Shown: piece by piece, positions 8,828 to 27,840 of the stretch
Layout: each line of letters starts with the position of its first letter
How positions within the stretch are numbered: the stretch's first letter is position 1
IMG/VR virus record: IMGVR_UViG_3300012920_000071
Span: 1 to 45,877 of that record
DNA from: a virus
Direction: 5' to 3' (one strand)
DNA length: 45,877 nucleotides
The notes under the pieces: model-generated
Seen by the model: the letters and a program-made list of their open reading frames with translations, nothing else
The model's database searches: none
What the model was told of the DNA's origin: nothing
Program-made: the position numbers and the translations under genes

Positions 8828-10558
8828 ATGGACAATATAGTAGCGCAATCTGCGCGTGAAGCATGGAAGCCGGCTGACCGAAGAGCTCCTTGGGAGTGGG
8901 CAGAGGATAACTTTAAAGTAGCTGTTTCACCTTTCCCGGGAAAGTGGCGTTCAGACAACTCCCCATGGGTTAAGAAATTCATGGAGACTTTTGCGGATAA
9001 TAGAGTCCGTACTATTTCTGTAATGTGTTCTGCTCAGTCAGCTAAAACTGAGACAATGATCGCATGTCTTTGTTGGCTTATATCTGAAGATCCTGGGCCA
9101 ACTATGTGGGTAACATCTAATGAAGATGAGGCACTAAAGTTCGCTAAGGAGCGCATGATGCCATCACTTAAGGAATGCCCATTGGTAGAACAATTGATAC
9201 CGAAGTCTAGAGAACTTGCGAAGGCTAAGGAAATCTTCTTCCCGCATATGACTTTGGAGATTGTAGGCTCAAATGCACCATCTAAGCTACAATCTAAGCC
9301 TCGTAGATGGCTCCTACTTGATGAGGTACGAAACTGGCCGCCAGGTGCGTTACCTATGGTACTAAAACGTACACGTACCTACTGGAATGCTAGACAGCTG
9401 ATTATATCAACACCAGATGTAGAGCATGATGCTGTTCACCAAGAGTTCCTAAAAGGCAATCAGCAGATATGGAACGTAGTTTGTCCGAAGTGCGGAGAAA
9501 AGCATGAGCTTTCGTGGGAGTTCATAAAATGGGATAGTAACGATGTCACAAAGCCTGGTGGGAAGTACAACTTTGATGAACTATCAAAAACAATTCGCAT
9601 GGAGTGTCCAAATTGTGCCTACGCAACATATGACACACCTGCTGAAAGAAGAAGGCTTACGCATGGAGAGTGGGTAGAAACAAACCCAGATGCATCAGAG
9701 AAACGTAAGTCTTTTACGTGGTCGGCTCTTTTACCTACATGGGTGAGGTGGTCAGAGTTGGTTGAGGAGTTTCTTTCTGCTAAAAAAGCCCTATCATGGG
9801 GAGACCCACAGCCACTAAAGACTTTCATAACCGAATCACTGGGACAACCTTGGCAAGACCGACTTCGCTACAATCAAGGTGGTAACTGGTCTGAGGACAG
9901 AAAAGGCACATTTAGGCTTCTAGATAGGTGGGAAAATGAAACCCGCAGATTCCTAGGTGTAGATGTGCAAAAAGACCACCTTTTTTATGTATGTAGAGCG
10001 TTTGGAGAAAGAGGAATATCTCGCTTAATAGACTATGGTAAGATACCTGACTTTTCTTCACTACGGGAGAAGATAACTGAATTGCGTGTAGATGATGATG
10101 ATGTGGTCATTGACTCTGGTTATAATGCCACATCTATATACAATGAAGTGACCAAAAGTGGCTACTCATGGAAACCTATGAAGGGAGATGACTATCAATA
10201 CTTTGTAGTGGATGGTGTACGCCAACCATATAAAGATACCTTGGTAGACCCGGCAATGGGTACTACAATGCAAGGTCAAGTGAGACCAGTTCGGTTGTTT
10301 GTATTCTCAAATCCAGCAATCAAAGACCTTCTCTCAGAGTACACTCGAGGCATTGGTCCATCATGGGAGATCGCAGAGAATATCACCATGGATTATGTCC
10401 AGCAGATGAGTGCGGAACATCGTGAGGAAATAACAGATACTTACGGAAAAGTTTCCTATAAGTGGGTAAATAAACCCCGCCGACCAAACCACTACTGGGA
10501 CTGCGAGTGTATGATTATGGTGGCGGGGCTTGTAACGGGTTGCATTGGGGTCGCGTGA
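8828..10558 (+). CDS. terminase large subunit (GpA-like)
   Basis: 576 aa, GpA family. The ATPase half has a Walker A-like CSAQSAKTE (about 67-75) after SVM and a Walker B RWLLLDEVRNWP (about 158-170). Two CxxC pairs (CPKCGEKHEL and CPNCAYATY) form a probable zinc ribbon. The nuclease half follows with FLGVDVQKDHLFY and VVIDSGYNATSIY, the conserved acidic residues of the RNase H-like fold. It cuts and pumps DNA into the prohead. Start at 8828 is not preceded by an SD; a related TTGACT lies 27 nt upstream (8795-8800) and a three-codon ORF (8810-8821) sits between them. Confidence 0.92.
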   Translation: MDNIVAQSAREAWKPADRRAPWEWAEDNFKVAVSPFPGKWRSDNSPWVKKFMETFADNRVRTISVMCSAQSAKTETMIACLCWLISEDPGPTMWVTSNEDEALKFAKERMMPSLKECPLVEQLIPKSRELAKAKEIFFPHMTLEIVGSNAPSKLQSKPRRWLLLDEVRNWPPGALPMVLKRTRTYWNARQLIISTPDVEHDAVHQEFLKGNQQIWNVVCPKCGEKHELSWEFIKWDSNDVTKPGGKYNFDELSKTIRMECPNCAYATYDTPAERRRLTHGEWVETNPDASEKRKSFTWSALLPTWVRWSELVEEFLSAKKALSWGDPQPLKTFITESLGQPWQDRLRYNQGGNWSEDRKGTFRLLDRWENETRRFLGVDVQKDHLFYVCRAFGERGISRLIDYGKIPDFSSLREKITELRVDDDDVVIDSGYNATSIYNEVTKSGYSWKPMKGDDYQYFVVDGVRQPYKDTLVDPAMGTTMQGQVRPVRLFVFSNPAIKDLLSEYTRGIGPSWEIAENITMDYVQQMSAEHREEITDTYGKVSYKWVNKPRRPNHYWDCECMIMVAGLVTGCIGVA

Positions 10559-11618: not shown

Positions 11619-11894
11619 AGCGTGGCTAACTGGAAGGTAATCTACCGAGATTACACGAGTGAAGAAATTGCAGAGGAACTTGCAACATTAAAAAAAGAGG
11701 CTAAAAATATGTACTTAGCCCAGAGTGTTGGCAATAAATCTTACCAACGCAGCATCACAAGTGTAGAGGAGCGGCTACGGGCTATCGCGGAAATCAAACG
11801 TGAGCAGGGTGGAAATTCATATAACGACTCTTACTATGTTGACTTTCGTGGCGAAGGTCAAATTGAATGGGGTAACCGCAATAGAATACCATGA
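11616..11894 (+). CDS. head-to-tail joining protein, gpW-like
   Basis: 92 aa. Start chosen at ATG 11616 because the GTTGACA element sits 14 nt upstream and the upstream extension would overlap the divergent gene. Helical protein with IAEELATLKKEAKNMYLAQS and a C-terminus WGNRNRIP. Size and place (immediately before the portal) match lambda gpW-type head completion proteins. Overlaps the portal start (ATGA). Confidence 0.65.
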   Translation: MSVANWKVIYRDYTSEEIAEELATLKKEAKNMYLAQSVGNKSYQRSITSVEERLRAIAEIKREQGGNSYNDSYYVDFRGEGQIEWGNRNRIP

Positions 11895-16947: not shown

Positions 16948-17373
16948 ATGCAAGAAGAAGAACGTAAAGAAGCGATTAAGAAAGCAGGTCGAGCCGCTGG
17001 TGCTGTCGCAGCTGGTGGTGCATACTGGAAAGCCGCAAGAGATAATCAAATACTCAAAAATGCTAATGAAGACCGAAAGGGCTTTAGGCGGGATTTGGAG
17101 CAAAAGAAAAAAGCTGCTTTTGAAGAATATAAAGCAAAGAGGGGTGGAGATGCATCCATGGATAGCTGGCTAAAAGGAGAGGGTAAAGAGCACGCAGGTA
17201 TTGAGGCAAAGAAAAACAAGTATAATGACTTTATAGAGAAGAGAGATAAGGTAAAATTCATAGACACTCCAGGAAGCCACAAAACTGCGATATTTAAAAA
17301 TCGCTTTAGGCATCTGTACAACAGAATGAATCTCGGAAAAGCAAGGCTCCCCAGAATCCTCACACGTGTATGA
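16948..17373 (+). CDS. basic protein with N-terminal glycine-zipper segment, 141 aa
   Basis: ATG 16948 immediately after the previous stop. Starts MQEEERKEAIKKAGRAAGAV, then AVAAGGAYWKAA; Gly/Ala spacing suggests a short amphipathic or zipper helix. The rest is a Lys-rich helical chain. Ends over the start of the decoration fusion (4-nt overlap). Same inferred class as the previous genes. Function unknown. Confidence 0.55.
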   Translation: MQEEERKEAIKKAGRAAGAVAAGGAYWKAARDNQILKNANEDRKGFRRDLEQKKKAAFEEYKAKRGGDASMDSWLKGEGKEHAGIEAKKNKYNDFIEKRDKVKFIDTPGSHKTAIFKNRFRHLYNRMNLGKARLPRILTRV

Positions 17374-20288
17374 ACCACAATGATGTTATATCTTTGCCCA
17401 CAGCAGGCTCTGGCGTTACCGCTGGAGACTTTGTGTATTTGGACACTGATGGTAAGTGTGCTCGATTAACTGGGTCCATTGTAAAAGAACGCGCGATAGG
17501 AGTAGCTTTACATGACCAAAAGCCTGATGTTGATGCATCTAACAATGCTGTAGACGTTCACCTACTATCCTCATCAGGTGTCGCATTGGTCAACTACCCG
17601 CTACAGGTAGCGCCTGGTACAGAAATTTTCGTTAATGATGGTAATCCTGCCGGCACAACAAGTGGACGGCATATTGGTATAGCTCTTGAAAGTAAGGTAA
17701 GTGGGTCAGGCTTACTTCGCATTATACTAGTATCCTCTGATGCCTATAGTGCTGGGGCGGCTCCAAACCTACTAGGTCAAGCCATTGGTGAGGCAATAGC
17801 ACGATCAACAGCAAGCGCGAGATTAGACACGCCACCATTGGGGCAAACCAATACTCAAGGCAACTTTAGCGGAGAGTCAACAAGTGAAGCCTCCTTCTAT
17901 AGTACCACCGCTACACAAACAATATTCCAGTCAGGGAGCGCAACTTCTTCTGGTTCATTCTTTGCTTCAGGAGCTACACAGCCTGTTATCTTTAATGCAA
18001 CATCAGAATCTAAAGGTTCACTAATAATTACAGCATCAAGTGTTAGTGCCAATAAGTTCCTATTAGGTGGGTCTGAGTCTTCATCTTCATTTACCGTTAC
18101 TATAGCACCTTGGACCCCAAGTACTAATGGAGGCAGCATCTCAAGTGGTCAATTTACTGGAAGTGTAGCACCTTGGACTCCAGCTACTCATGGAGGTAGC
18201 ACTTCAAATGGTCAATTTGCAGGAAGTGTAGCACCTTGGACTCCAAGTACCAATGGGGGTAGTACATCAAGTGGGCAATTTACTGGAAGTGTAGTTACAC
18301 CATCCATGGCAGGCCACGCAATAGGCCAAGCAAGTGCTGAAGTTACCGCAGGTGGTGTCCTAACCTCACCATCAGCTATGGGAGGATATGCTGAAGGAGA
18401 ATCCACTACTGAAGCAACTGCCTCTGCATCAACGTCAATCGCAGGATTAAGTGGAGAAGCTGTTGGAACGTCTACTACCGAAGCAAGTGCATCCGCGGCC
18501 ACTTCTACAGCAGGAGTAAATGGAGAAGCCATAGGTGAATCCACGACCGAAACAACTGCATCTGCATCAACCTCTACAGCAGGGGTGAATGGAGAGGCTA
18601 TAGGTGAGTCTACGACCGAAACAACTGCATCTGCATCAACTTCATCAGTAGGTCTTACCGGGGAAGCGATAGGGGAGTCCTCTACTGAAGGAACCGCAGG
18701 GGGTACAGTATCAACGACCTCAGCTCCCATTAGTGGCGAGGCTATCGGTGAGGCTTCAACTGAAGGCGCGGCTACCGGTAACATAGCGCAACCGTCTAAT
18801 GAAAGTCTAGTAGCAGCAATGAGCGGCAAAGAGATTTGGCTCGATGCTTCAGTTTTTGATGGAAGCGACGCAAGTAACAATCCTTCAGACTTAACAGAGG
18901 TAGGTGATGGAACCTATGATTGGACTGACCGGACTGGGAATTACACTTTAAGCCAAGAATTTCCTACACTTTCAGACCAACCTTACTACCGAAACACCTT
19001 TAGTGATTTTAACGGTAAAGGGGCAGTGCATTTCCCCGCCGGGGACAGACCTCTATACCTTAGTTCAGGTATGACAAGTGGCTTTAAACATTTGTTTGTG
19101 GTTCATAATGCACCCTGGACGAGTGAAGCGGGTAACACCAATAGTGCCACTACATATCTAACTCCATACGGTCACAGCCGTACACACAGGAATGATAGTG
19201 GAAGTATCCATCTAATCAATAAAGCTAACGTCACTGATGCGTCTGCTTTTCGTTATAAGTATGGTAGTAATTACGGAAACCACTACTTCGATGATGCAAC
19301 AAAAGACGGAGTTGCAGTTCCCGATGCAGATCAAGCAACTTATGTGGCAAGTTCAAGAACTTCAGCAAATGAACCAATAGGTAGGTATAATCTAACAAAC
19401 AATTACACTTACCCTTCGGGTCTTGTGGATGGAAGTAAACCTGTGATATGGGAACATAAATTTACTTCTTCAACTGACCAAGCATTCCGTCACTTTAATA
19501 AAGGCGAAACTAATAGCAGTGACCCAGGTTTCATGTGCCACTGGGGAGAGTTTATAGCTTTTACAGACGTACTATCTGATGCAGATCGTCTGATTGTCCT
19601 TAAATACTTATCTGACAAATACGGAATTCCAATTTACACAGGAGAGACTGAGATCACTCAAGAGTCTAACCTCACGAACTGGTACAAATTTGAGGAAGGT
19701 ACAGCAGGGCAAACCAATAAATACATAAGAGACTGGGCAGGTACAAAACCTACCTTTGTTCGTAACGGTGCAACTATTGAGGCTGGCAGACGGGGTGGCT
19801 GCGTTCGTATGGCAGATGGCAGTAACGATGAAGTTTCTTGGACAGCACAAACTCTAACAATTGCATCTTCTTACACATTTTCTTTCTGGGCAAAGAGAGA
19901 TAGTTCTGGTGGTGGTAGTGCAGTAACTATAGTTGCATCAAGCAGCACTGGTATCGAAGTCGAACTAGATGGCAGTAATACCATCTTCAAACATGACTCG
20001 ACCTCGATTAGCTCTACAACTGTACCAACTCAGGGGACTTGGGCTCACTATGCTATTACTTATGACGGCACTACAATGGAAGCCTTCATAGACGGAACTT
20101 CTGTTGGTTCTACTTCATTATCATCACCTTCAACCAGTGGATATCTTCGGATTGGGAGAGGCATCGCATCTGTTAACGCTTTTATTGGTGATGTAGACGA
20201 TGTTCGGCTTTACAGCACCAATCTTAGTTCATCAGAAATTCAAGCAGTTGCAAATGATGACGCGGACAACCCTTACTACAACATATGA
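17370..20288 (+). CDS. capsid-decoration/lectin fusion protein, 972 aa
   Basis: Residues 1-120 (MNHNDVISLPTAGSGVTAGD ... GLLRIILVSS) are a clear paralog of the stand-alone proteins at 22194 and 23674, which look like head decoration proteins. Then come two repeat arrays (about 245-308 and 313-475), a lectin-like domain starting IWLDASVFDG with a DRTGNY... pattern (about 481-755), and a LamG/concanavalin-like domain (about 760-970: WYKFEEGT..., SFWAKRD, WAHYAITYDGTTMEAFIDG, GDVDDVRLYSTNLSSSEI). This domain class binds glycans in other proteins. I infer display on the capsid surface through the decoration domain, with binding of polysaccharide, mucus or host surface. A tail-associated role is an alternative. 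Confidence 0.7.
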   Translation: MNHNDVISLPTAGSGVTAGDFVYLDTDGKCARLTGSIVKERAIGVALHDQKPDVDASNNAVDVHLLSSSGVALVNYPLQVAPGTEIFVNDGNPAGTTSGRHIGIALESKVSGSGLLRIILVSSDAYSAGAAPNLLGQAIGEAIARSTASARLDTPPLGQTNTQGNFSGESTSEASFYSTTATQTIFQSGSATSSGSFFASGATQPVIFNATSESKGSLIITASSVSANKFLLGGSESSSSFTVTIAPWTPSTNGGSISSGQFTGSVAPWTPATHGGSTSNGQFAGSVAPWTPSTNGGSTSSGQFTGSVVTPSMAGHAIGQASAEVTAGGVLTSPSAMGGYAEGESTTEATASASTSIAGLSGEAVGTSTTEASASAATSTAGVNGEAIGESTTETTASASTSTAGVNGEAIGESTTETTASASTSSVGLTGEAIGESSTEGTAGGTVSTTSAPISGEAIGEASTEGAATGNIAQPSNESLVAAMSGKEIWLDASVFDGSDASNNPSDLTEVGDGTYDWTDRTGNYTLSQEFPTLSDQPYYRNTFSDFNGKGAVHFPAGDRPLYLSSGMTSGFKHLFVVHNAPWTSEAGNTNSATTYLTPYGHSRTHRNDSGSIHLINKANVTDASAFRYKYGSNYGNHYFDDATKDGVAVPDADQATYVASSRTSANEPIGRYNLTNNYTYPSGLVDGSKPVIWEHKFTSSTDQAFRHFNKGETNSSDPGFMCHWGEFIAFTDVLSDADRLIVLKYLSDKYGIPIYTGETEITQESNLTNWYKFEEGTAGQTNKYIRDWAGTKPTFVRNGATIEAGRRGGCVRMADGSNDEVSWTAQTLTIASSYTFSFWAKRDSSGGGSAVTIVASSSTGIEVELDGSNTIFKHDSTSISSTTVPTQGTWAHYAITYDGTTMEAFIDGTSVGSTSLSSPSTSGYLRIGRGIASVNAFIGDVDDVRLYSTNLSSSEIQAVANDDADNPYYNI
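18097..18290 (+). repeat. three 63-nt in-frame tandem repeats
   Basis: Three copies of a 21-aa unit of the type APWTPSTNGGSTSSGQFTG (copies begin near 18103, 18166 and 18229), inside gene 17370-20288. Copies differ at a few positions. Probably an extended linker or beta-repeat stalk; also a hot spot for length change. Confidence 0.75.
18306..18800 (+). repeat. seven to eight degenerate in-frame repeats (about 69 nt)
   Basis: Units of about 23 aa of the type GEAIGESTTETTASASTS, seven or eight degenerate copies, inside gene 17370-20288. The two middle copies (near 18525-18650) are nearly identical. Thr/Ser/Ala/Gly-rich, suggesting a flexible stalk between decoration and lectin domains. One related unit appears earlier, near 17780. 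Confidence 0.7.
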
Positions 20289-20488
20289 GTAGTTACGCTG
20301 TAATAGATTCTTCTAAACGCGATTCCGTGGATTGGAATGACGTACTAGAAGAAGAAGGTTACGAGAGATGGAGTTTAGACGGCTCTAAGTTTCTTGTAGA
20401 ATTCCCCGGCGCAATACCTACCTGGGCCGGTGGGGAAACTATTTTAACACAAGAAACTGCTCGACAGCGCGTAGCAGAAGAATTTTAA
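20285..20488 (+). CDS. small hypothetical protein, 67 aa
   Basis: Overlaps the fusion gene end (ATGA). Acidic protein (MSSYAVIDSSKRDSVDWNDV...). The composition and spot after a fibre-like protein resemble small accessory proteins next to phage tail or capsid fibres, but I cannot name a family. Likely translationally coupled to the fusion protein. Confidence 0.65.
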   Translation: MSSYAVIDSSKRDSVDWNDVLEEEGYERWSLDGSKFLVEFPGAIPTWAGGETILTQETARQRVAEEF

Positions 20489-20513
20489 CCAACAACAAAA
20501 AATTGCGTAAAAG

Positions 20514-20536
20514 TTGACTCCAACGTTTTTATTATG
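20514..20536 (+). promoter_or_regulatory. GTTGACT-N14-ATG element (gene 20534)
   Basis: TTGACT at 20514-20519, 14 nt, then ATG 20534. One mismatch from TTGACA. No SD upstream. Confidence 0.55.
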
Positions 20537-20992
20537 GCTACTACATCTAATGCTGCAGGCGACTGGTTTGAAGAAAATGCACTAAACCATCTTTTTGGTT
20601 ACATGTCTGTCTCACAACCAACTTCTATTGATATTAAACTTTACTCTTCTGATCCAGGCGAAGATGGATCAAGTTCAACTGAGCTTGATACTTCTAATGA
20701 CCCAGGATATAGTGCCGTAACACTATCAAGTCTTAGTAGTGATGGCACAGTAGGCACAGACAGTGATGGTTACTACTGGGCTCCAAACTCTGATGTGACT
20801 TGGACTGCTAGTGGTGCTTGGACAACTGCCCCAGGTGGCATTGCATTATGGGCTGATGGCTCCTATATTCTAATGCATGGATCACTAGATGATGGGTCAG
20901 GTGGGTCACTTTCGGCTTTGAGTAATGGACAAACTTTGACGATTAGCTGTGATGGCACGTCATCATCTTCCTTAAAATTTAAACTCTCATAA
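20534..20992 (+). CDS. fibre-like protein with xLYSSDPGEDG motif, 152 aa
   Basis: Ser/Thr/Gly-rich, no membrane segment. Contains DIKLYSSDPGEDGSSSTELD, paralogous to KLGLYTSDPGEDGTSGTEVS in the next gene. This motif is familiar from phage virion proteins often annotated as tail-fibre proteins. The rest is beta-prone (VTWTASGAWTTAPGGIALW). I infer a capsid or tail fibre component; location between portal and protease hints at a capsid-associated role. Confidence 0.6.
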   Translation: MATTSNAAGDWFEENALNHLFGYMSVSQPTSIDIKLYSSDPGEDGSSSTELDTSNDPGYSAVTLSSLSSDGTVGTDSDGYYWAPNSDVTWTASGAWTTAPGGIALWADGSYILMHGSLDDGSGGSLSALSNGQTLTISCDGTSSSSLKFKLS

Positions 20993-20994
20993 CA

Positions 20995-22197
20995 ATGGCA
21001 CTCACAGGATCGTTTACTACCGCATTCCAGAATAAGCTACTAGACGCTTTAGCGTCTAATGATGTTTTAGATACCTGCCTTGATGGACTAAAGCTTGGTC
21101 TTTACACCTCAGACCCAGGCGAAGATGGCACATCAGGAACTGAAGTTTCAGGTGGTAACTATTCTCGCCAGTCATTTACTGTTGGAGCAGCAACTGAGGA
21201 TACTTCAGTTACACCATCTGTAGGTAAAATCTCGAATGCTGCAGCTATTAATTTTGCAGCTAACGGTGCAGCTTGGAATGGCATTGAATACGCTGCTATC
21301 TTTAGGACTAAGAGTCTTACTCGTTCAATAGTTGGCATTACAAATGCCAGTGAAGTAAACGCAAGCGGAGATTCGGTTTCGTATAACAAAATAATCATTC
21401 CTGCTTCACATTGCTCAACTGTAGCGACTTTGACGATCACAGGATTTGATGTTGTAGACCGTGCTGGTGGTGATGGTGTTGCAGATTGGCATTCAACCCT
21501 TACCTATAGTGGAAGTAATGCTACTTACTACACTGAAGAATCAAATGGGGCGGCTGCAAACAGCGCCCAAAATTCAACGAACTTTATTCGCGTAAAAACA
21601 GGACCATTAGCTGGTATTTGTTATGATATTGTTGGTGAAGGAACCAACACCATAACAATTGATTCCTACTACAAATTCTTGGATGAAGATATTTTAAATC
21701 AACAAGTTGAAGTCATGGCAAAAGTGACTTTGGCAGATTTATCTGGTATTGTTCACAATAGCTCAACTACCCTTGATAGTAATGGCTATGCCGCATCTGG
21801 ATCAGGTTTCCTTTCGGGTAGTTCGTCTACTGCTGACCGATTTTATATCCATAATACTTTACAAACAGCAGTCGTTTACTATTTACAAAACGCACCAGTT
21901 TTTGCTGGCGACGTAGGCTGGCGACAACTAGGTGTAGCAGCATCTGCGGATGCTGGTGGTGCTGTAATCCCCCCAGCAGAACTATGGCCACATACAGACC
22001 AGACAACTGATGATTACTGTATGTTGGATACAAGACAAACCGCTGACTGGACTCTAACTAGCCAGGTTTCAACCACCGACGAACTAGTTGCTCGCCTTCG
22101 TGCTGTTGATGGCTCTGGAAATAATGCTACACTCAACGTAGCGGATGGTTCAAGTTTAGAGATTTCCGCAGGCGATCTTAAGCTCACACTTTCGTGA
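20995..22197 (+). CDS. fibre-like protein with xLYTSDPGEDG motif, 400 aa
   Basis: N-terminal 130 aa (MALTGSFTTAFQNKLLDALA ..., with GLYTSDPGEDG and GGNYSRQSFTVG) match the same phage fibre-type family as the previous gene. The remaining 270 aa are Ser/Thr/Gly-rich and beta-prone with no motif I know. Overlaps the next GTG start (GTGA). Paired duplication with gene 20534 suggests two interacting subunits. Confidence 0.6.
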   Translation: MALTGSFTTAFQNKLLDALASNDVLDTCLDGLKLGLYTSDPGEDGTSGTEVSGGNYSRQSFTVGAATEDTSVTPSVGKISNAAAINFAANGAAWNGIEYAAIFRTKSLTRSIVGITNASEVNASGDSVSYNKIIIPASHCSTVATLTITGFDVVDRAGGDGVADWHSTLTYSGSNATYYTEESNGAAANSAQNSTNFIRVKTGPLAGICYDIVGEGTNTITIDSYYKFLDEDILNQQVEVMAKVTLADLSGIVHNSSTTLDSNGYAASGSGFLSGSSSTADRFYIHNTLQTAVVYYLQNAPVFAGDVGWRQLGVAASADAGGAVIPPAELWPHTDQTTDDYCMLDTRQTADWTLTSQVSTTDELVARLRAVDGSGNNATLNVADGSSLEISAGDLKLTLS

Positions 22198-22547
22198 ACC
22201 ATAATGATGTTATATCATTACCTGTCACCACTGCATCGTCAGCTGGTGACATTATGGTTTTAAATAGTGATGGTACTTGTACTCCTTATGGAGCCGGCAA
22301 TACTAAAGAGAAGGCAATAGGCGTTGCATTACATGATGTTGATCCTACGGAAGTAGGTGATCCACATGCCATCCACTTATTCGGTGGGATATTCGTAGCT
22401 AAGGCAGGTGGCCCCATATCAATTGGTGATATCGTGGGCATACGTGATGGTGTAGCTACCTTGCAAAACTCCGGCACAATACGTCAAGTTGGGATAGCAC
22501 TTGAAAACCTTACAGGTGTCGGTCTAATTAGAGTCATATCAACATGA
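22194..22547 (+). CDS. head decoration-like protein, copy 2, 117 aa
   Basis: GTG start overlapping the previous stop. Begins MNHNDVISLPVTTASSAGDI, same start as the domain at 17370 and the protein at 23674. Pattern of Gly-x-V and small beta strands (EKAIGVALHDVDPTE ... VGIALENLTGVGLIRVI) fits decoration/DUF2190-type capsid proteins. Lies just before the protease gene. A capsid surface or assembly role is inferred. Confidence 0.65.
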   Translation: MNHNDVISLPVTTASSAGDIMVLNSDGTCTPYGAGNTKEKAIGVALHDVDPTEVGDPHAIHLFGGIFVAKAGGPISIGDIVGIRDGVATLQNSGTIRQVGIALENLTGVGLIRVIST

Positions 22548-23659
22548 ACGAAGACATTCATTTTTTTAACGCAGTAGATGGTCGTATCGACCCTGATGCG
22601 GGTGTAGTAAGAGGTGTTTCCTTAATAACCATGGGTACTGCTCGTGGTCACAATCTTGAGGTAGATGATAAAACACTCACACAACTAAAAGAATCACTTG
22701 ATAGCACACCACCACCAGGTATCAAAGCTAAGTTGAATCATCGCTCTGGGGTTGAAGCTGTATTCGGTTATATCAACAACTTCCAAGTTGAAGGTAATAA
22801 GCTTACTGGTGACCTAAACATGCTAAGGCATCACAAAGACTTTAATCAGACGATGGAGCAAATAACTACGATGCCCGGTCAGATAGGACTTTCGGTTGCT
22901 TTTCAAGGAGACAAAGAACCGGGTAAGGATGGAAAAGTTTATGCTCGCTGTAAGCGAATAGTCTCCGTAGATTTAGTACCTGATCCGGCAGCTAACCCGG
23001 ACGGGATGTTTGAAAGTAAAGTTGACAACGACATAGTGTATATGGACCAGGAACCTAATGTAGAGGAACTCCTTCAGGGCATCGCAGAGCGCCTTGACGG
23101 CGTTGAGGAATTTCAAGGCAACTTGGAAGAAGCAATCGCAGACCAGCTAACTGAAGATTACTCTGATGAAGATTACTCTGATGAGGATTATTCTGATGAA
23201 GCTGATTATGCCGACGATGAAGTCGAATATGAGGATTCTTACGAGGATTCTGAAGCAGAGTACGAGCCAGTCGAATACTCCAGCATTGATGATGCCTTGA
23301 CTTACCTTGAGGCTAAAGCTGAAGGCGCTCTTGCCGCTGAAGAGGAAGCTCGTGAAAATATGCTTTTTGAAAATGTAGAGGACAAAGTTGTTGAGCTCGC
23401 TGAGATCAACCAGCAGCTACAAGCTGAAAACGAAGTACTACAGGAAGCTCTTGAACTTCAAGAGGTAGAGGCTGTACCAACTTCATCAGAAGCTTTCTTG
23501 TTCGGCGCAGATGCCGGTGAAGGAACTTTTGAGTTCGCTATTCAACAACACGCTTCTGGCGAAGCTGAAAGTAGCCACGAAGCAATTCGTTCTGCTGTTG
23601 CTGACTCTCCAGCTGCTCACCGTGACTGGCTAATACGCCAAGGAATCTTAGAAAACTAA
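22544..23659 (+). CDS. prohead serine protease with scaffold-like C-terminus
   Basis: 371 aa. Residues 1-160 are a capsid maturation protease: KAKLNHRSGVEAVFGYINNF (His66), a loop TTMPGQIGLSVAF (Ser117 as likely nucleophile) and VDLVPDPAANPDGMFES. Downstream is an acidic part with DYSDE repeats (about 205-219), then a coiled coil (AEINQQLQAENEVLQEALEL, about 284-303). This matches protease-scaffold polyproteins such as lambda C, whose second half (Nu3) is also made separately from an internal start; here see 23042. It lies just upstream of a decoration gene and the capsid gene. Confidence 0.85.
   Translation: MNEDIHFFNAVDGRIDPDAGVVRGVSLITMGTARGHNLEVDDKTLTQLKESLDSTPPPGIKAKLNHRSGVEAVFGYINNFQVEGNKLTGDLNMLRHHKDFNQTMEQITTMPGQIGLSVAFQGDKEPGKDGKVYARCKRIVSVDLVPDPAANPDGMFESKVDNDIVYMDQEPNVEELLQGIAERLDGVEEFQGNLEEAIADQLTEDYSDEDYSDEDYSDEADYADDEVEYEDSYEDSEAEYEPVEYSSIDDALTYLEAKAEGALAAEEEARENMLFENVEDKVVELAEINQQLQAENEVLQEALELQEVEAVPTSSEAFLFGADAGEGTFEFAIQQHASGEAESSHEAIRSAVADSPAAHRDWLIRQGILEN
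23022..23044 (+). promoter_or_regulatory. internal GTTGACA-N14-ATG element
   Basis: TTGACA 23022-23027, 14 nt, then in-frame ATG 23042 (Met167 of the protease gene). Same spacing as in front of other late genes. Confidence 0.55.
23042..23659 (+). CDS. predicted internal start: scaffold protein, 205 aa
   Basis: Same frame as the protease; would start at Met167 (MDQEPNVEELLQGIAERL). Contains all the acidic repeats and the coiled coil but none of the protease domain, which is what a scaffolding protein should look like. Evidence is the GTTGACA-N14-ATG element (23022-23041), identical in spacing to that of other late genes, plus the known lambda C/Nu3 precedent. Expression itself is inferred. 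Confidence 0.5.
   Translation: MDQEPNVEELLQGIAERLDGVEEFQGNLEEAIADQLTEDYSDEDYSDEDYSDEADYADDEVEYEDSYEDSEAEYEPVEYSSIDDALTYLEAKAEGALAAEEEARENMLFENVEDKVVELAEINQQLQAENEVLQEALELQEVEAVPTSSEAFLFGADAGEGTFEFAIQQHASGEAESSHEAIRSAVADSPAAHRDWLIRQGILEN
23156..23200 (+). repeat. three 15-nt tandem repeats (DYSDE)
   Basis: GATTACTCTGATGAA repeated three times with one or two substitutions, coding DYSDE x3 in the acidic linker of the scaffold region. Likely slippage-prone and of variable copy number. Confidence 0.8.
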
Positions 23660-23673
23660 GGAGATAGAAACTT

Positions 23674-24027
23674 ATGAATCATAATGGTGTAATTTCTCTC
23701 CCGTCTGACGGCTCTTCCACCTATACGGCTGGAATGATCGTTAGCCTTAATTCTTCAGGACAAGCCGCTGCAAACGGTGGAACTGGTGATGGCATCGGTG
23801 TTGTACTACATGATGTGAAGGCTGATGAAACTGGACGCCCTTTAGACATTCAACTATTTAGTGCTGGAGGTTCTGCTCTCGTCAAAGCCAATGGTTCAAT
23901 TACCGTTGGTCAAGAAGTTGGCTATGCTGACAATGACAGTGACGTGGATTCCTCTGGTGCCAATAAAATCGGATATGCCCTTGAAGTTGGTGCGACAGGT
24001 GGCTTAGTACGAGTCATACTAAAGTAG
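23674..24027 (+). CDS. head decoration-like protein, copy 3, 117 aa
   Basis: Strong SD (AGGAGA) upstream of ATG 23674. Begins MNHNGVISLPSDGSSTYTAG; third paralog of the decoration-type domain. The gene sits immediately before the major capsid gene, the classical place of a decoration protein (lambda D position). Its beta-rich sequence (GSITVGQEVGYADND ... GYALEVGATGGLVRVIL) fits. Probably the main decoration protein, stabilising the expanded capsid. Confidence 0.7.
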   Translation: MNHNGVISLPSDGSSTYTAGMIVSLNSSGQAAANGGTGDGIGVVLHDVKADETGRPLDIQLFSAGGSALVKANGSITVGQEVGYADNDSDVDSSGANKIGYALEVGATGGLVRVILK

Positions 24028-24046: not shown

Positions 24047-25105
24047 ATGTATAAGAATAGCCACGCTATCATTCGCCACGACCTCAACGCGTTTGTTGAA
24101 GAGGCCGCTTCCACTGACAAGCTTCTTTTCGGCTCACAAATTTTGCCACAACTTCCTGTGGATGCCCGCGCTGGCATTTACCCGAAGATTGAAATTGGTA
24201 ATGGTGGTGAGCTTCTTAAGAAAGACAGCACATTACGTGGACCAACCGGCACCTACAACGAAACAACTCGCAAGTTCACCACTGACACCTATGAGTGTTT
24301 AGATCGTGGTATGGAAGAGCGAATTGATGACGTTGTTGTACGTGATTACGCAAAATTCTTTGACGTAGAGGTTCTTACCTCCAAGCTCATCATGCGCACA
24401 ATGAAGCTCGATTATGAGTCTCGTGTGTACAATCTGCTACAAGGCGCTACTACATCTAGTAATAGTAACTTCCTTCAACTCGATGGTGTTACCGTTGCTA
24501 ATGGTAATAATGCTGCTAATGGATGGGGAACTACTGCTGGTCTCGCTGACTGCGACTTTCCTCTTCTACTCATGAATGCTATCACCGAGCTCACAAAGCG
24601 TGGTGAAACCCCTAATACCTTGGTAATGGGTCAGCAAGCATGGAATTGGTTCCGTCGCTCAACCAAGCTTAACACCTTCCTATACGGATCGTTAGGTACT
24701 GGTCTTGGGTACAAGATGGTGACAGAATCTGATATCGCTAAGCAGTTCCGTTTACAAAACATTTACATCGCTGCGGCTCACTATGATGAAGCTAATCGTA
24801 ATGCCTCTGCTTCCTTAACCCCACTTTGGAATAATGACCGTATGTGGTTGGGTGAAGTCAAGGGTGGTGAGGTTTCCGCTGGTGGCGCAGGACGTACCTT
24901 CGTGTGGTCCAAAGATGGCTCTGGCCTCTTCACCACAGAAACTTATCGCTCTGAGCCTCGCCGAGGTGATATGGTACGCGTTCGTCATCACACCTCTGAG
25001 AAGGTTGTGAACAAGAATGCTGGCCTCGAAATCATCCTCAATGAGCAAGGAACAGATAACGAAGGCAATTGGGGCGCAACTGCTAACTCAATTAGCTGGG
25101 AATAA
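24047..25105 (+). CDS. major capsid protein
   Basis: 352 aa, placed after protease and decoration and followed by a strong terminator, as expected for the most abundant product. Recognisable capsid-type pattern: IGNGGELLKKDSTLRGPTG, RKFTTDTYECLDRGMEERI, LDYESRVYNLLQGATTSS and a C-terminal region EVKGGEVSAGGAGRTFVWSK with HHTSEKVVNKNAG. Probable HK97 fold. No N-terminal delta domain is obvious, consistent with a separate scaffold. SD is weak (AGGA, 12 nt upstream). Confidence 0.85.
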   Translation: MYKNSHAIIRHDLNAFVEEAASTDKLLFGSQILPQLPVDARAGIYPKIEIGNGGELLKKDSTLRGPTGTYNETTRKFTTDTYECLDRGMEERIDDVVVRDYAKFFDVEVLTSKLIMRTMKLDYESRVYNLLQGATTSSNSNFLQLDGVTVANGNNAANGWGTTAGLADCDFPLLLMNAITELTKRGETPNTLVMGQQAWNWFRRSTKLNTFLYGSLGTGLGYKMVTESDIAKQFRLQNIYIAAAHYDEANRNASASLTPLWNNDRMWLGEVKGGEVSAGGAGRTFVWSKDGSGLFTTETYRSEPRRGDMVRVRHHTSEKVVNKNAGLEIILNEQGTDNEGNWGATANSISWE

Positions 25106-26451: not shown

Positions 26452-26474
26452 TTGACAAAGGGCTTTTTAGTATG
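26452..26474 (+). promoter_or_regulatory. GTTGACA-N14-ATG element (gene 26472)
   Basis: TTGACA 26452-26457, overlapping the previous TAG stop region, 14 nt, ATG 26472. Confidence 0.6.
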
Positions 26475-26846
26475 GCTACTACAAAATTAGGCGACTGCGC
26501 GTATATTTACGGAATTGATACCAATGAAGAAATCGCTGGTATGATTATAACTGGCCTAACGAAGGAAACTTCTCCTGAGTTTGAGGCTGAAGCAACCGAT
26601 GATACCGGTAATGTAAAATCGGTCGTTAGGGGTGGTGATAAGATAAGTTACACAGTTTCAGGCTTTGCTAAAAATACAGCACTGCTTAGTACACATGGTG
26701 GAGATGGATGTACAACTACCATTGATGAAAAAACATGTATTATTGAAAAGTGGTCAATCAATAGCGCAAATAATGACTTTGCAAAGTGTGAATTGACTGC
26801 GGTACATTATCCGGTAGCAACTTACTGCTGTTCTCCAGATGCATGA
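26472..26846 (+). CDS. tail tube-like protein, copy 1, 124 aa
   Basis: Small beta-rich protein with ITGLTKETSPEFEAEATDD followed by NVKSVVRGGDKISYTVSGF. The next gene carries the same layout, so they are paralogs. Place (after the terminator-like protein, before chaperone and tape measure) is that of tail tube proteins. Two Cys pairs near the end (CTTTIDEKTCIIEKW, TYCCSPDA). Inferred tail tube or tube-related. Confidence 0.6.
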   Translation: MATTKLGDCAYIYGIDTNEEIAGMIITGLTKETSPEFEAEATDDTGNVKSVVRGGDKISYTVSGFAKNTALLSTHGGDGCTTTIDEKTCIIEKWSINSANNDFAKCELTAVHYPVATYCCSPDA

Positions 26847-26883: not shown

Positions 26884-27237
26884 ATGGCAAAAGAAGAATG
26901 TGGTAAGTTTTTATTTGGTACAACAGCTGTTACAGGCATCTCAATTGCGGTTGAGAGTACATCATCTGAGTCAAATCCTCAGTACCAAGCTGAAGCTAAA
27001 AATAAAGATGGAGAAACTGAGGCTATCAAGGTTGGAAAGCTTACAGGCTCTTGTACTGTAAGTGGCTTTAAGAAAAGTGGAGCGGAAGAACCTAAAATTG
27101 GCGACACGTTTCCTCTTGATGGAGAAACTTTTTTTGTAGACAAAGTTACAGTTACACAATCCAATGAAGATTTCCAAAAAATGGAAGTTGTAGGGAAATT
27201 CTGGCAAGGTGTAACCACGGTGTGTCCGAATGCTTAA
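26884..27237 (+). CDS. tail tube-like protein, copy 2, 117 aa
   Basis: Paralog of the previous gene: ISIAVESTSSESNPQYQAEA, then TEAIKVGKLTGSCTVSGF, with the same spacing. No GTTGACA box and no clear SD before ATG 26884. Duplication of a tube gene could give two tube components or a tip/terminator variant. Which copy is the main tube protein cannot be told from sequence. Confidence 0.55.
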   Translation: MAKEECGKFLFGTTAVTGISIAVESTSSESNPQYQAEAKNKDGETEAIKVGKLTGSCTVSGFKKSGAEEPKIGDTFPLDGETFFVDKVTVTQSNEDFQKMEVVGKFWQGVTTVCPNA

Positions 27238-27252: not shown

Positions 27253-27840
27253 GTGGGTATTGATGAACAATTCGCTCAAGCATGGCTAAATGTTGAGCAC
27301 AAAGTCTTTGGGTTTAAACTAAAGCCATTTAGTCTTTGGCATCGATTCCTACTTAAAGTAACACAGTCAAAAATCCTCGATGCGGGAAGTGAAATCTCCG
27401 CAATGGATGTTTATAAGGCAGCTTACGTTTGTACCCTTAAATACCCCAAAGCTCCTCGCCTTGGACCTCTTTCCAAGTTTAGGAGCTTTGTTTATTTACT
27501 AAGAGATGTGCATGTGAATGTTGAAAAATTCACGGCATACATTCAAGACTATGTAACTCAACCTGAGTTCTGGGAAAGTAAAGATTCTTCGGGCAGCTCC
27601 ACAAGTGGTCCACCAGAAGAACTATCAACCGTTGTCGCTTTGATGCAGATGGGAATGACTGAGCGTGAAGCATGGGATTGTCCTTGCGGAATGGCTAGTT
27701 GGTACGCTGCGGCTCATGCATCATGGAATGGAGCAAACTTAGATTTTAAAACAGAAGAAGATAGGCATGTAATGGAGAATTTTGATGCAATAATGGCAGC
27801 GGCTAAGGCTAAGGAAGGAAAAGACAATGGCGAGTCTTAA
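27253..27840 (+). CDS. tail assembly chaperone candidate, 195 aa
   Basis: GTG start at 27253 (MGIDEQFAQAWLNVEHKVFG). It is the gene directly before the tape measure, where the gpG-like chaperone normally sits, and overlaps its start by 14 nt. Helical, with a C-terminal AAAKAKEGKDNGES. I looked for a slippery site for a G/GT-type frameshift near the end and saw no convincing heptamer. Assigned by position. Confidence 0.5.
   Translation: MGIDEQFAQAWLNVEHKVFGFKLKPFSLWHRFLLKVTQSKILDAGSEISAMDVYKAAYVCTLKYPKAPRLGPLSKFRSFVYLLRDVHVNVEKFTAYIQDYVTQPEFWESKDSSGSSTSGPPEELSTVVALMQMGMTEREAWDCPCGMASWYAAAHASWNGANLDFKTEEDRHVMENFDAIMAAAKAKEGKDNGES

Follow-up and report, generated by a model that had tools for sequence, protein, structure and literature searches.

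The viral record IMGVR_UViG_3300012920_000071, analyzed over its full length of 45,877 bases (the window) and belonging to a tailed phage, encodes a 972-residue protein at 17370-20288 (plus strand, as are the genes that follow it up to 25105) that is probably a head-fibre-like decoration protein, with a cement base displaying interchangeable adhesin domains for reversible adsorption to polysaccharide. The chain comprises a cement-fold anchor of the beta-tulip type with an MNHNDVISLP N-terminal arm (residues 1-121, 17370-17732), a repetitive stalk (about residues 126-478, 17745-18803), a domain without family match (about residues 481-775, 18810-19694) and a LamG/ConA-like domain (residues 816-958, coordinates 19815-20243 placed by a genome search). 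Anchoring of this protein on the capsid through its cement fold is well supported by sequence kinship and by the predicted structure.

The anchor is one of three paralogs, as the original prediction had recognized from a common MNHNxVISLP start. The open reading frames (ORFs) at 17370-20288 (ATG start), 22194-22547 (117 residues, GTG start) and 23674-24027 (117 residues, ATG start) begin with MNHNDVISLP, MNHNDVISLP and MNHNGVISLP, respectively. When the fusion protein was used as query the two others were retrieved at E-values of 4.1e-16 and 1.3e-12 with 42-43% identity, and 18 columns are invariant in an alignment of the three proteins with four relatives. The third paralog is the canonical cement gene. 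It lies directly 5' of the major capsid protein gene (24047-25105; PHROG 1005, E 3.7e-29) and matches both Phage_cement_2 (PF09956; E 5.6e-6, 27.1 bits against a cut-off of 24) and the head decoration PHROG 122. In a Pfam search extended to E-values of 1, neither the fusion anchor nor the second paralog matched PF09956, although the counterpart of the latter in the related record L010 passes it (26 bits); because the fusion has no match of its own, it is not filed under this family but linked to it through its paralogs. In a 24-sequence alignment (A4), the first ten residues of the fusion are identical at eight to ten positions to those of the 12 nearer rows (window, L001, L003-L005, L010, L016, L019 and L020), beyond which the anchor is 24 to 36% identical to the same rows; the arms of the 11 remoter rows are identical at two to nine positions. 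Duplication of the canonical cement gene is the best explanation for the origin of the anchor.

The same alignment was used for a model of residues 1-131, which had a mean predicted local distance difference test score (pLDDT) of 85.3, and for a profile search of the PDB. Among solved structures, Foldseek ranked HFTV1 best (8qsy, capsid stabilization protein, CSP; E 1.3e-5); next came a capsid chain of Pam3 (4e-5), phage BB1 of Borrelia and the base of phi29 gp8.5 (4.8e-4). VIA-align gave Z scores of 11.4 for a capsid chain of Sf11, 11.2 for HFTV1 and BB1, 10.3 for a TW1 capsid chain and 9.1 for the phi29 gp8.5 base, the latter over 113 residues at 3.3 A. The listed solved-structure matches are mostly capsid entries, and the only matches under 0.01 in the profile search were phi29 capsid fibre entries (E 1.2e-4 and 5.2e-4). 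The decoration-type anchor of the original prediction is supported by its gene position, by the PF09956 match of the third paralog, by the head-fibre base of phi29 as best PDB profile match and by a confident model; the fold unlike decoration proteins that would have spoken against that prediction was not observed, the model scoring Z 9-11 against several capsid cement chains. Fifty listed matches among viral predicted structures include DUF2190, head fiber and capsid fiber proteins, and several of the 50 are 300 to 1489 residues long, the matching part within them not being located. Judging from these predicted models, long proteins with a cement-like domain exist in other viruses, mostly unnamed.

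The stalk is dominated by Ser (19%), Thr (16%), Ala (15%) and Gly (14%) and contains the two repeat arrays that had been described in it. The first, at 18103-18294, consists of 63 bp repeated 3.0 times and encodes 21-residue APWTP units with three starts (residues 246-308). The second, at 18395-18680, consists of 69 bp repeated about four times and encodes 23-residue GEAIGE-type units (residues about 362-478), of which there are four to five, with five starts and the final one at a spacing of 25. The claim of two lectin-like domains behind the stalk held for one of them. Residues 816-958 match Laminin_G_3 (PF13385) at E 2.5e-24 (86.6 bits against a cut-off of 27.6) and, in the PDB, the S-layer domain protein 4qvs (E 7.1e-9). 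The LamG part also has two matches below cut-off in NCBIfam, to the TafC fimbrial protein (E 2e-5) and to the head spike fibre domain of gene transfer agents (GTA; E 5.4e-5); membership in the latter family (NF048003) was rejected at 23.8 bits against a cut-off of 36. Residues 481-775 had no match in Pfam or NCBIfam and no credible one in the PDB (best E 0.45) or among annotated phages (best E 0.8), and their sole PHROG match was PHROG 11772, of unknown function (E 1.1e-4). Their designation as a lectin was rejected for want of any match. This domain may nevertheless share the LamG/ConA-like fold; its YLSDKYGI motif is reminiscent of phage ConA-like domains. The stalk and the C-terminal domains are acidic, with net charges of -21, -14 and -8.

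In a related phage the anchor and the locus are conserved and the payload differs, which points to exchangeable grips on the outer face of the head. The fusion gene is the first of a five-gene cassette that lies between the portal and capsid genes, directly 5' of a gene for a prohead protease/scaffold-type protein (22544-23659). Relatives were found by scanning viral contigs with the capsid protein and with alignments of cement, capsid and protease, and the stretch 5' of the protease/scaffold gene was readable in 23 other records (L001-L006, L010, L016, L017, L019, L020, L023, L024, L027, L029-L036 and L053), with L001/L002/L017, L003/L006, L023/L024, L029/L030 and L031/L032 being near-duplicates; L022, L025, L026, L028 and L039 were excluded since the site or the protease gene was not visible in them. 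A cement gene occupies the cassette site in two of the 23: it is complete in L010 and partial in L053, the closest kin (terminase 87% identical), where it runs 69 residues to the contig end. Another cement gene lies directly 5' of the capsid gene wherever both could be read, and is enlarged in L036 and L039. The gene order in L010 is fusion (613 residues), a 145-residue ORF, second cement, protease, third cement and capsid protein. In its fusion, a short linker with repeats joins the cement domain to FG-GAP_2 repeats (E 2.4e-17), which we take to form a beta-propeller, and no similarity was found between the two payloads (best BLASTp E 4.4; no phmmer match). Searches that covered 19 of the 29 records (the window and 18 others) found the LamG and gp80 (PF23140) families each in a single record, the window. 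In the cement tree the anchors of the window and L010 pair (93/79), the two second cements pair (97/92; 54% identity; the L010 gene at 10001-10360) and all four extra paralogs together make up a clade (96/95) that lies among canonical cements. If the pairing of the anchors holds, these sequences would place the duplication before the split of the window and L010, the payload having later been replaced or diverged beyond recognition.

Enlarged cement-type proteins were also found elsewhere. A profile search of 27 whole records detected the cement domain in 25, with one match in 21 of them and more than one in four (G006, G007, G011 and G025); two of the three matches in G011 belong to one interrupted protein. 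Five of these 25 records, none of them the window, have enlarged versions with differing added domains, the L010 fusion being one of the five. In L036 (243 residues) and L039 (357 residues) C-terminal additions, in which no named family was found, extend the protein at the canonical cement site. In L020 a 251-residue protein (711-1466), encoded just upstream of the terminase gene, has its cement-like domain split by an insert with similarity to tail-fibre and baseplate PHROGs, and a 230-residue protein in the record of L006, with a weak cement match (E 8.8e-5), appears to be interrupted like that of L020. Read by eye, a weakly matching cement-like domain at 406-1098 of L040 also seems to be interrupted by an insert. 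A fused tandem lectin version had been called uncommon; in this phage group the stalk-plus-LamG version was found in the window only. No cement-LamG fusion was found in the literature searched, subscription papers being outside its reach; papers among those found list decoration and ConA-like lectin genes as separate genes.

With the paralogy, domain layout, predicted anchor fold, locus and payload difference established, we infer the presence of the 17370 protein in the virion as well as its trimerisation, stoichiometry, ligand and role in adsorption. The N-terminal cement-fold domain would sit on the capsid exterior, probably trimeric and at three-fold or quasi-three-fold sites by analogy with beta-tulip cement proteins, and the repetitive stalk would raise the C-terminal adhesin domains, the LamG/ConA-like one included, off the capsid surface. 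The LamG domain would most likely bind polysaccharide of the host surface or matrix, multivalently and reversibly; judged by analogy, such glycan binding is the likeliest function, and binding of polysaccharide or mucus is plausible from the precedents of the RcGTA head spike and the HFTV1 turret. By this binding, virions would gather at the cell ahead of engagement by the tail. The payload of the cassette would be swapped among phages (LamG here, an FG-GAP beta-propeller in L010) while the anchors and the cement paralogs are kept.

Several points weigh against a head-borne glycan adhesin. The fusion itself lacks a Pfam cement match, the first C-terminal domain is without assignment and a single-sequence structure prediction of the C-terminal part reached a pLDDT of 32. 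The 93/79 support for the anchor pairing is just below the program thresholds of 95 and 80 on both measures, and the cassette has been seen in three records only (the window, L010 and L053), with L053 broken off after 69 residues. The virion location of the protein, moreover, is deduced from sequence and predicted fold, and the beta-tulip is shared by the tail appendage gp12 of phi29 (3gqh, Z 8.2 by VIA-align; gp12 fragments against the anchor model, Z 8.1-8.2). The protein could then be a neck or tail fibre anchored like gp12 and its LamG an ordinary receptor-binding domain of the tail, an arrangement that we hold to be decidedly unlikely. In its favour, the names of several of the 50 viral predicted structures listed refer to preneck appendages, tail-fibre-like proteins or tropism determinants, the cassette encodes two proteins with a GP4 'fiber I' domain, and in annotated phages the LamG part matches structural and baseplate proteins of cyanophages (best E 5e-4). 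Because gp12 and tail-type proteins match too, the fold by itself is no proof of a head location. However, several capsid cement chains match the anchor better (Z up to 11.4), the same list of predicted structures has head fiber and capsid fiber proteins, and the gene precedes those for the protease/scaffold and the capsid protein, whereas the presumed tape measure is at 27827. A head location is favoured because the anchor is akin in sequence to the cement gene beside the capsid gene, being nested among such capsid-adjacent cements, and shares their N-terminal arm.

It is also conceivable, and in our view rather unlikely, that the protein stands on the capsid with a payload that is no glycan lectin but serves to attach to protein, inert surfaces or other virions, or to shield or stabilise the head. 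LamG/ConA-like folds mediate protein contacts as well, the beta-propeller of L010 is without glycan assignment, the better of the two sub-threshold NCBIfam matches of the LamG part is the fimbrial protein and not the head-spike fibre, and the acidic character of the stalk and C-terminal domains also speaks for such a role, as does the influence on particle dispersal that is ascribed to T4 Hoc (PMC7602432). On the other hand, the second of these matches is to a domain of the GTA head-spike fibre, and in RcGTA the spike fibre binds the capsule (PMC10218006). A neutral or transient insertion that arose through gene duplication and plays no part in the virion would agree with the absence of the cassette from 21 of the 23 readable related records; yet every frame is open, the repeats of the stalk preserve the reading frame, the second cements of the window and L010 share 54% identity and each phage retains its two extra paralogs, so that we consider such an insertion very improbable.

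Beyond the decoration protein itself, we tentatively propose, as a possibility that falls short of an even chance, a modular capsid-side adsorption cassette in which a duplicated cement gene serves as a socket for unrelated adhesins and the co-encoded plain cements form mixed trimers that set the number of adhesins per head. The added domains on cement-type proteins of L036, L039, L020 and the record of L006 would be its other examples. The strength of ribosome sites was rejected as a guide to copy number, because the capsid genes themselves have weak sites. Phage adsorption has been studied mainly on tails. If cements are adhesin sockets, the phages of this group would exchange receptor binders on the head in the way they exchange tail fibres, and head-borne domains would constitute a second tier in the recognition of host or niche, which could be predicted in metagenomes through oversized cement-fold proteins encoded near capsid genes. 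A cement-adhesin fusion would also be a natural design for capsid display.

The remaining genes of the cassette encode a 67-residue ORF without Pfam or PHROGs name (20285-20488), a 152-residue protein (20534-20992) with a podophage GP4 fibre-I domain (gp80, PF23140; Pfam E 6.9e-7, above cut-off), a 400-residue protein (20995-22197) with the same domain (Pfam E 3e-15) that matches the 'head protein' PHROG 240 (E 7.1e-18), and the second cement. The two gp80 domain proteins, spanning 20534-22197, separate the fusion from the second cement, and homology of the 145-residue ORF of L010 with proteins of this type was not supported. The protease/scaffold-type protein received no name from Pfam or PHROGs; its assignment comes from position and conserved motifs, and it is 58-66% identical in L001-L006 and L010. 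PHROGs named the terminase at 8828, the portal at 11891 and the capsid protein at 24047, and by its position the 1221-residue ORF at 27827 is the presumed tape measure. Two adjoining paralogous genes upstream of the latter (26472-26846 and 26884-27237), paired in relatives too, possibly encode duplicated tail-tube proteins. Among annotated phages nothing was found at E 1e-3 for the fusion or the capsid protein, and nothing for the 400-residue gp80-type protein. Scans of viral contigs with the whole fusion, with the domain of residues ~481-775 and with the 400-residue protein returned no relative; neither did scans of genome contigs, hence they gave no host or prophage clue.

A candidate initiation signal was observed in the window as well. 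The hexamer GTTGAC, separated by exactly 15 bases from a downstream ATG, occurs eight times on the plus strand (6609, 7305, 11595, 20513, 23021, 25162, 26451 and 45412), against 0.35 expected and with none of 100 shuffles reaching eight; at six of the eight ATGs a listed ORF has its first start. The arrangement also precedes the ATG of the L010 fusion and that of the L001 protease and appears to be an initiation signal of fixed spacing in these phages, for which a literature search found nothing relevant. At 23021-23044 it precedes an in-frame ATG within the protease/scaffold gene, at codon 167, from which a separate scaffold protein could start. The internal signal is present in 14 of the 19 sources in which this gene is visible, distant ones included, and absent in L023, L027, L029, L030 and L036. 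In phage lambda, the scaffold protein Nu3 starts internally in the protease gene C.

The window protein combines cement base, stalk and LamG in one chain; capsid-borne projections of a similar kind are already known from phi29 gp8.5, the RcGTA head spikes and the HFTV1 turrets. The closest likeness is to the phi29 head fibre gp8.5 (PDB 6qyy and 6qvk), described as a trimeric base at quasi-three-fold sites with a fibre projecting outward (PMC6542822, PMC7602432). Both proteins join a C-terminal extension, which in the phi29 account projects from the capsid, to a cement-fold base, that of gp8.5 having ~110 residues and the fold of our anchor (Z 9.1; profile E 1.2e-4). Judged by sequence, they appear to differ: phi29 has a spike of ~165 residues in a helix-turn-helix supercoil, the window protein a 350-residue Ser/Thr-rich repeat stalk and ~490 further residues holding LamG. 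The genome of the window also has two more cement paralogs. The cements of PF09956 (DUF2190) and PF22758 and their kin (TW1, Pam3, E217 and the HFTV1 CSP) share the gene position directly 5' of the capsid gene, the Pfam match of the third paralog and the anchor fold, yet they are mostly single-domain caps; here one paralog, itself below the Pfam model, anchors extra domains. The fibre on the head of RcGTA, which is lectin-like, binds capsular polysaccharide and aids adsorption (PMC10218006, PMC7296036). The likeness to these spikes (base Rcc01079, fibre Rcc01080) lies in the sub-threshold GTA_spike_fiber match of the LamG part (E 5.4e-5); their base, however, is a separate jellyroll pentamer on capsid pentamers, whereas base and fibre of the window protein form one polypeptide with a cement fold. 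For HFTV1, it has been proposed that the turret head binds host glycans first (PMC12494034). Its CSP, gp18, is the top Foldseek match of the anchor, but turret (gp30/gp31) and CSP are separate proteins, and the window protein would join both roles in one chain. Finally, decoration proteins with immunoglobulin (Ig)-like domains likewise combine a capsid-binding domain with projecting adhesion domains (PMC7602432, PMC11821841), although with an Ig-like payload instead of LamG or a propeller and with another capsid-binding part.

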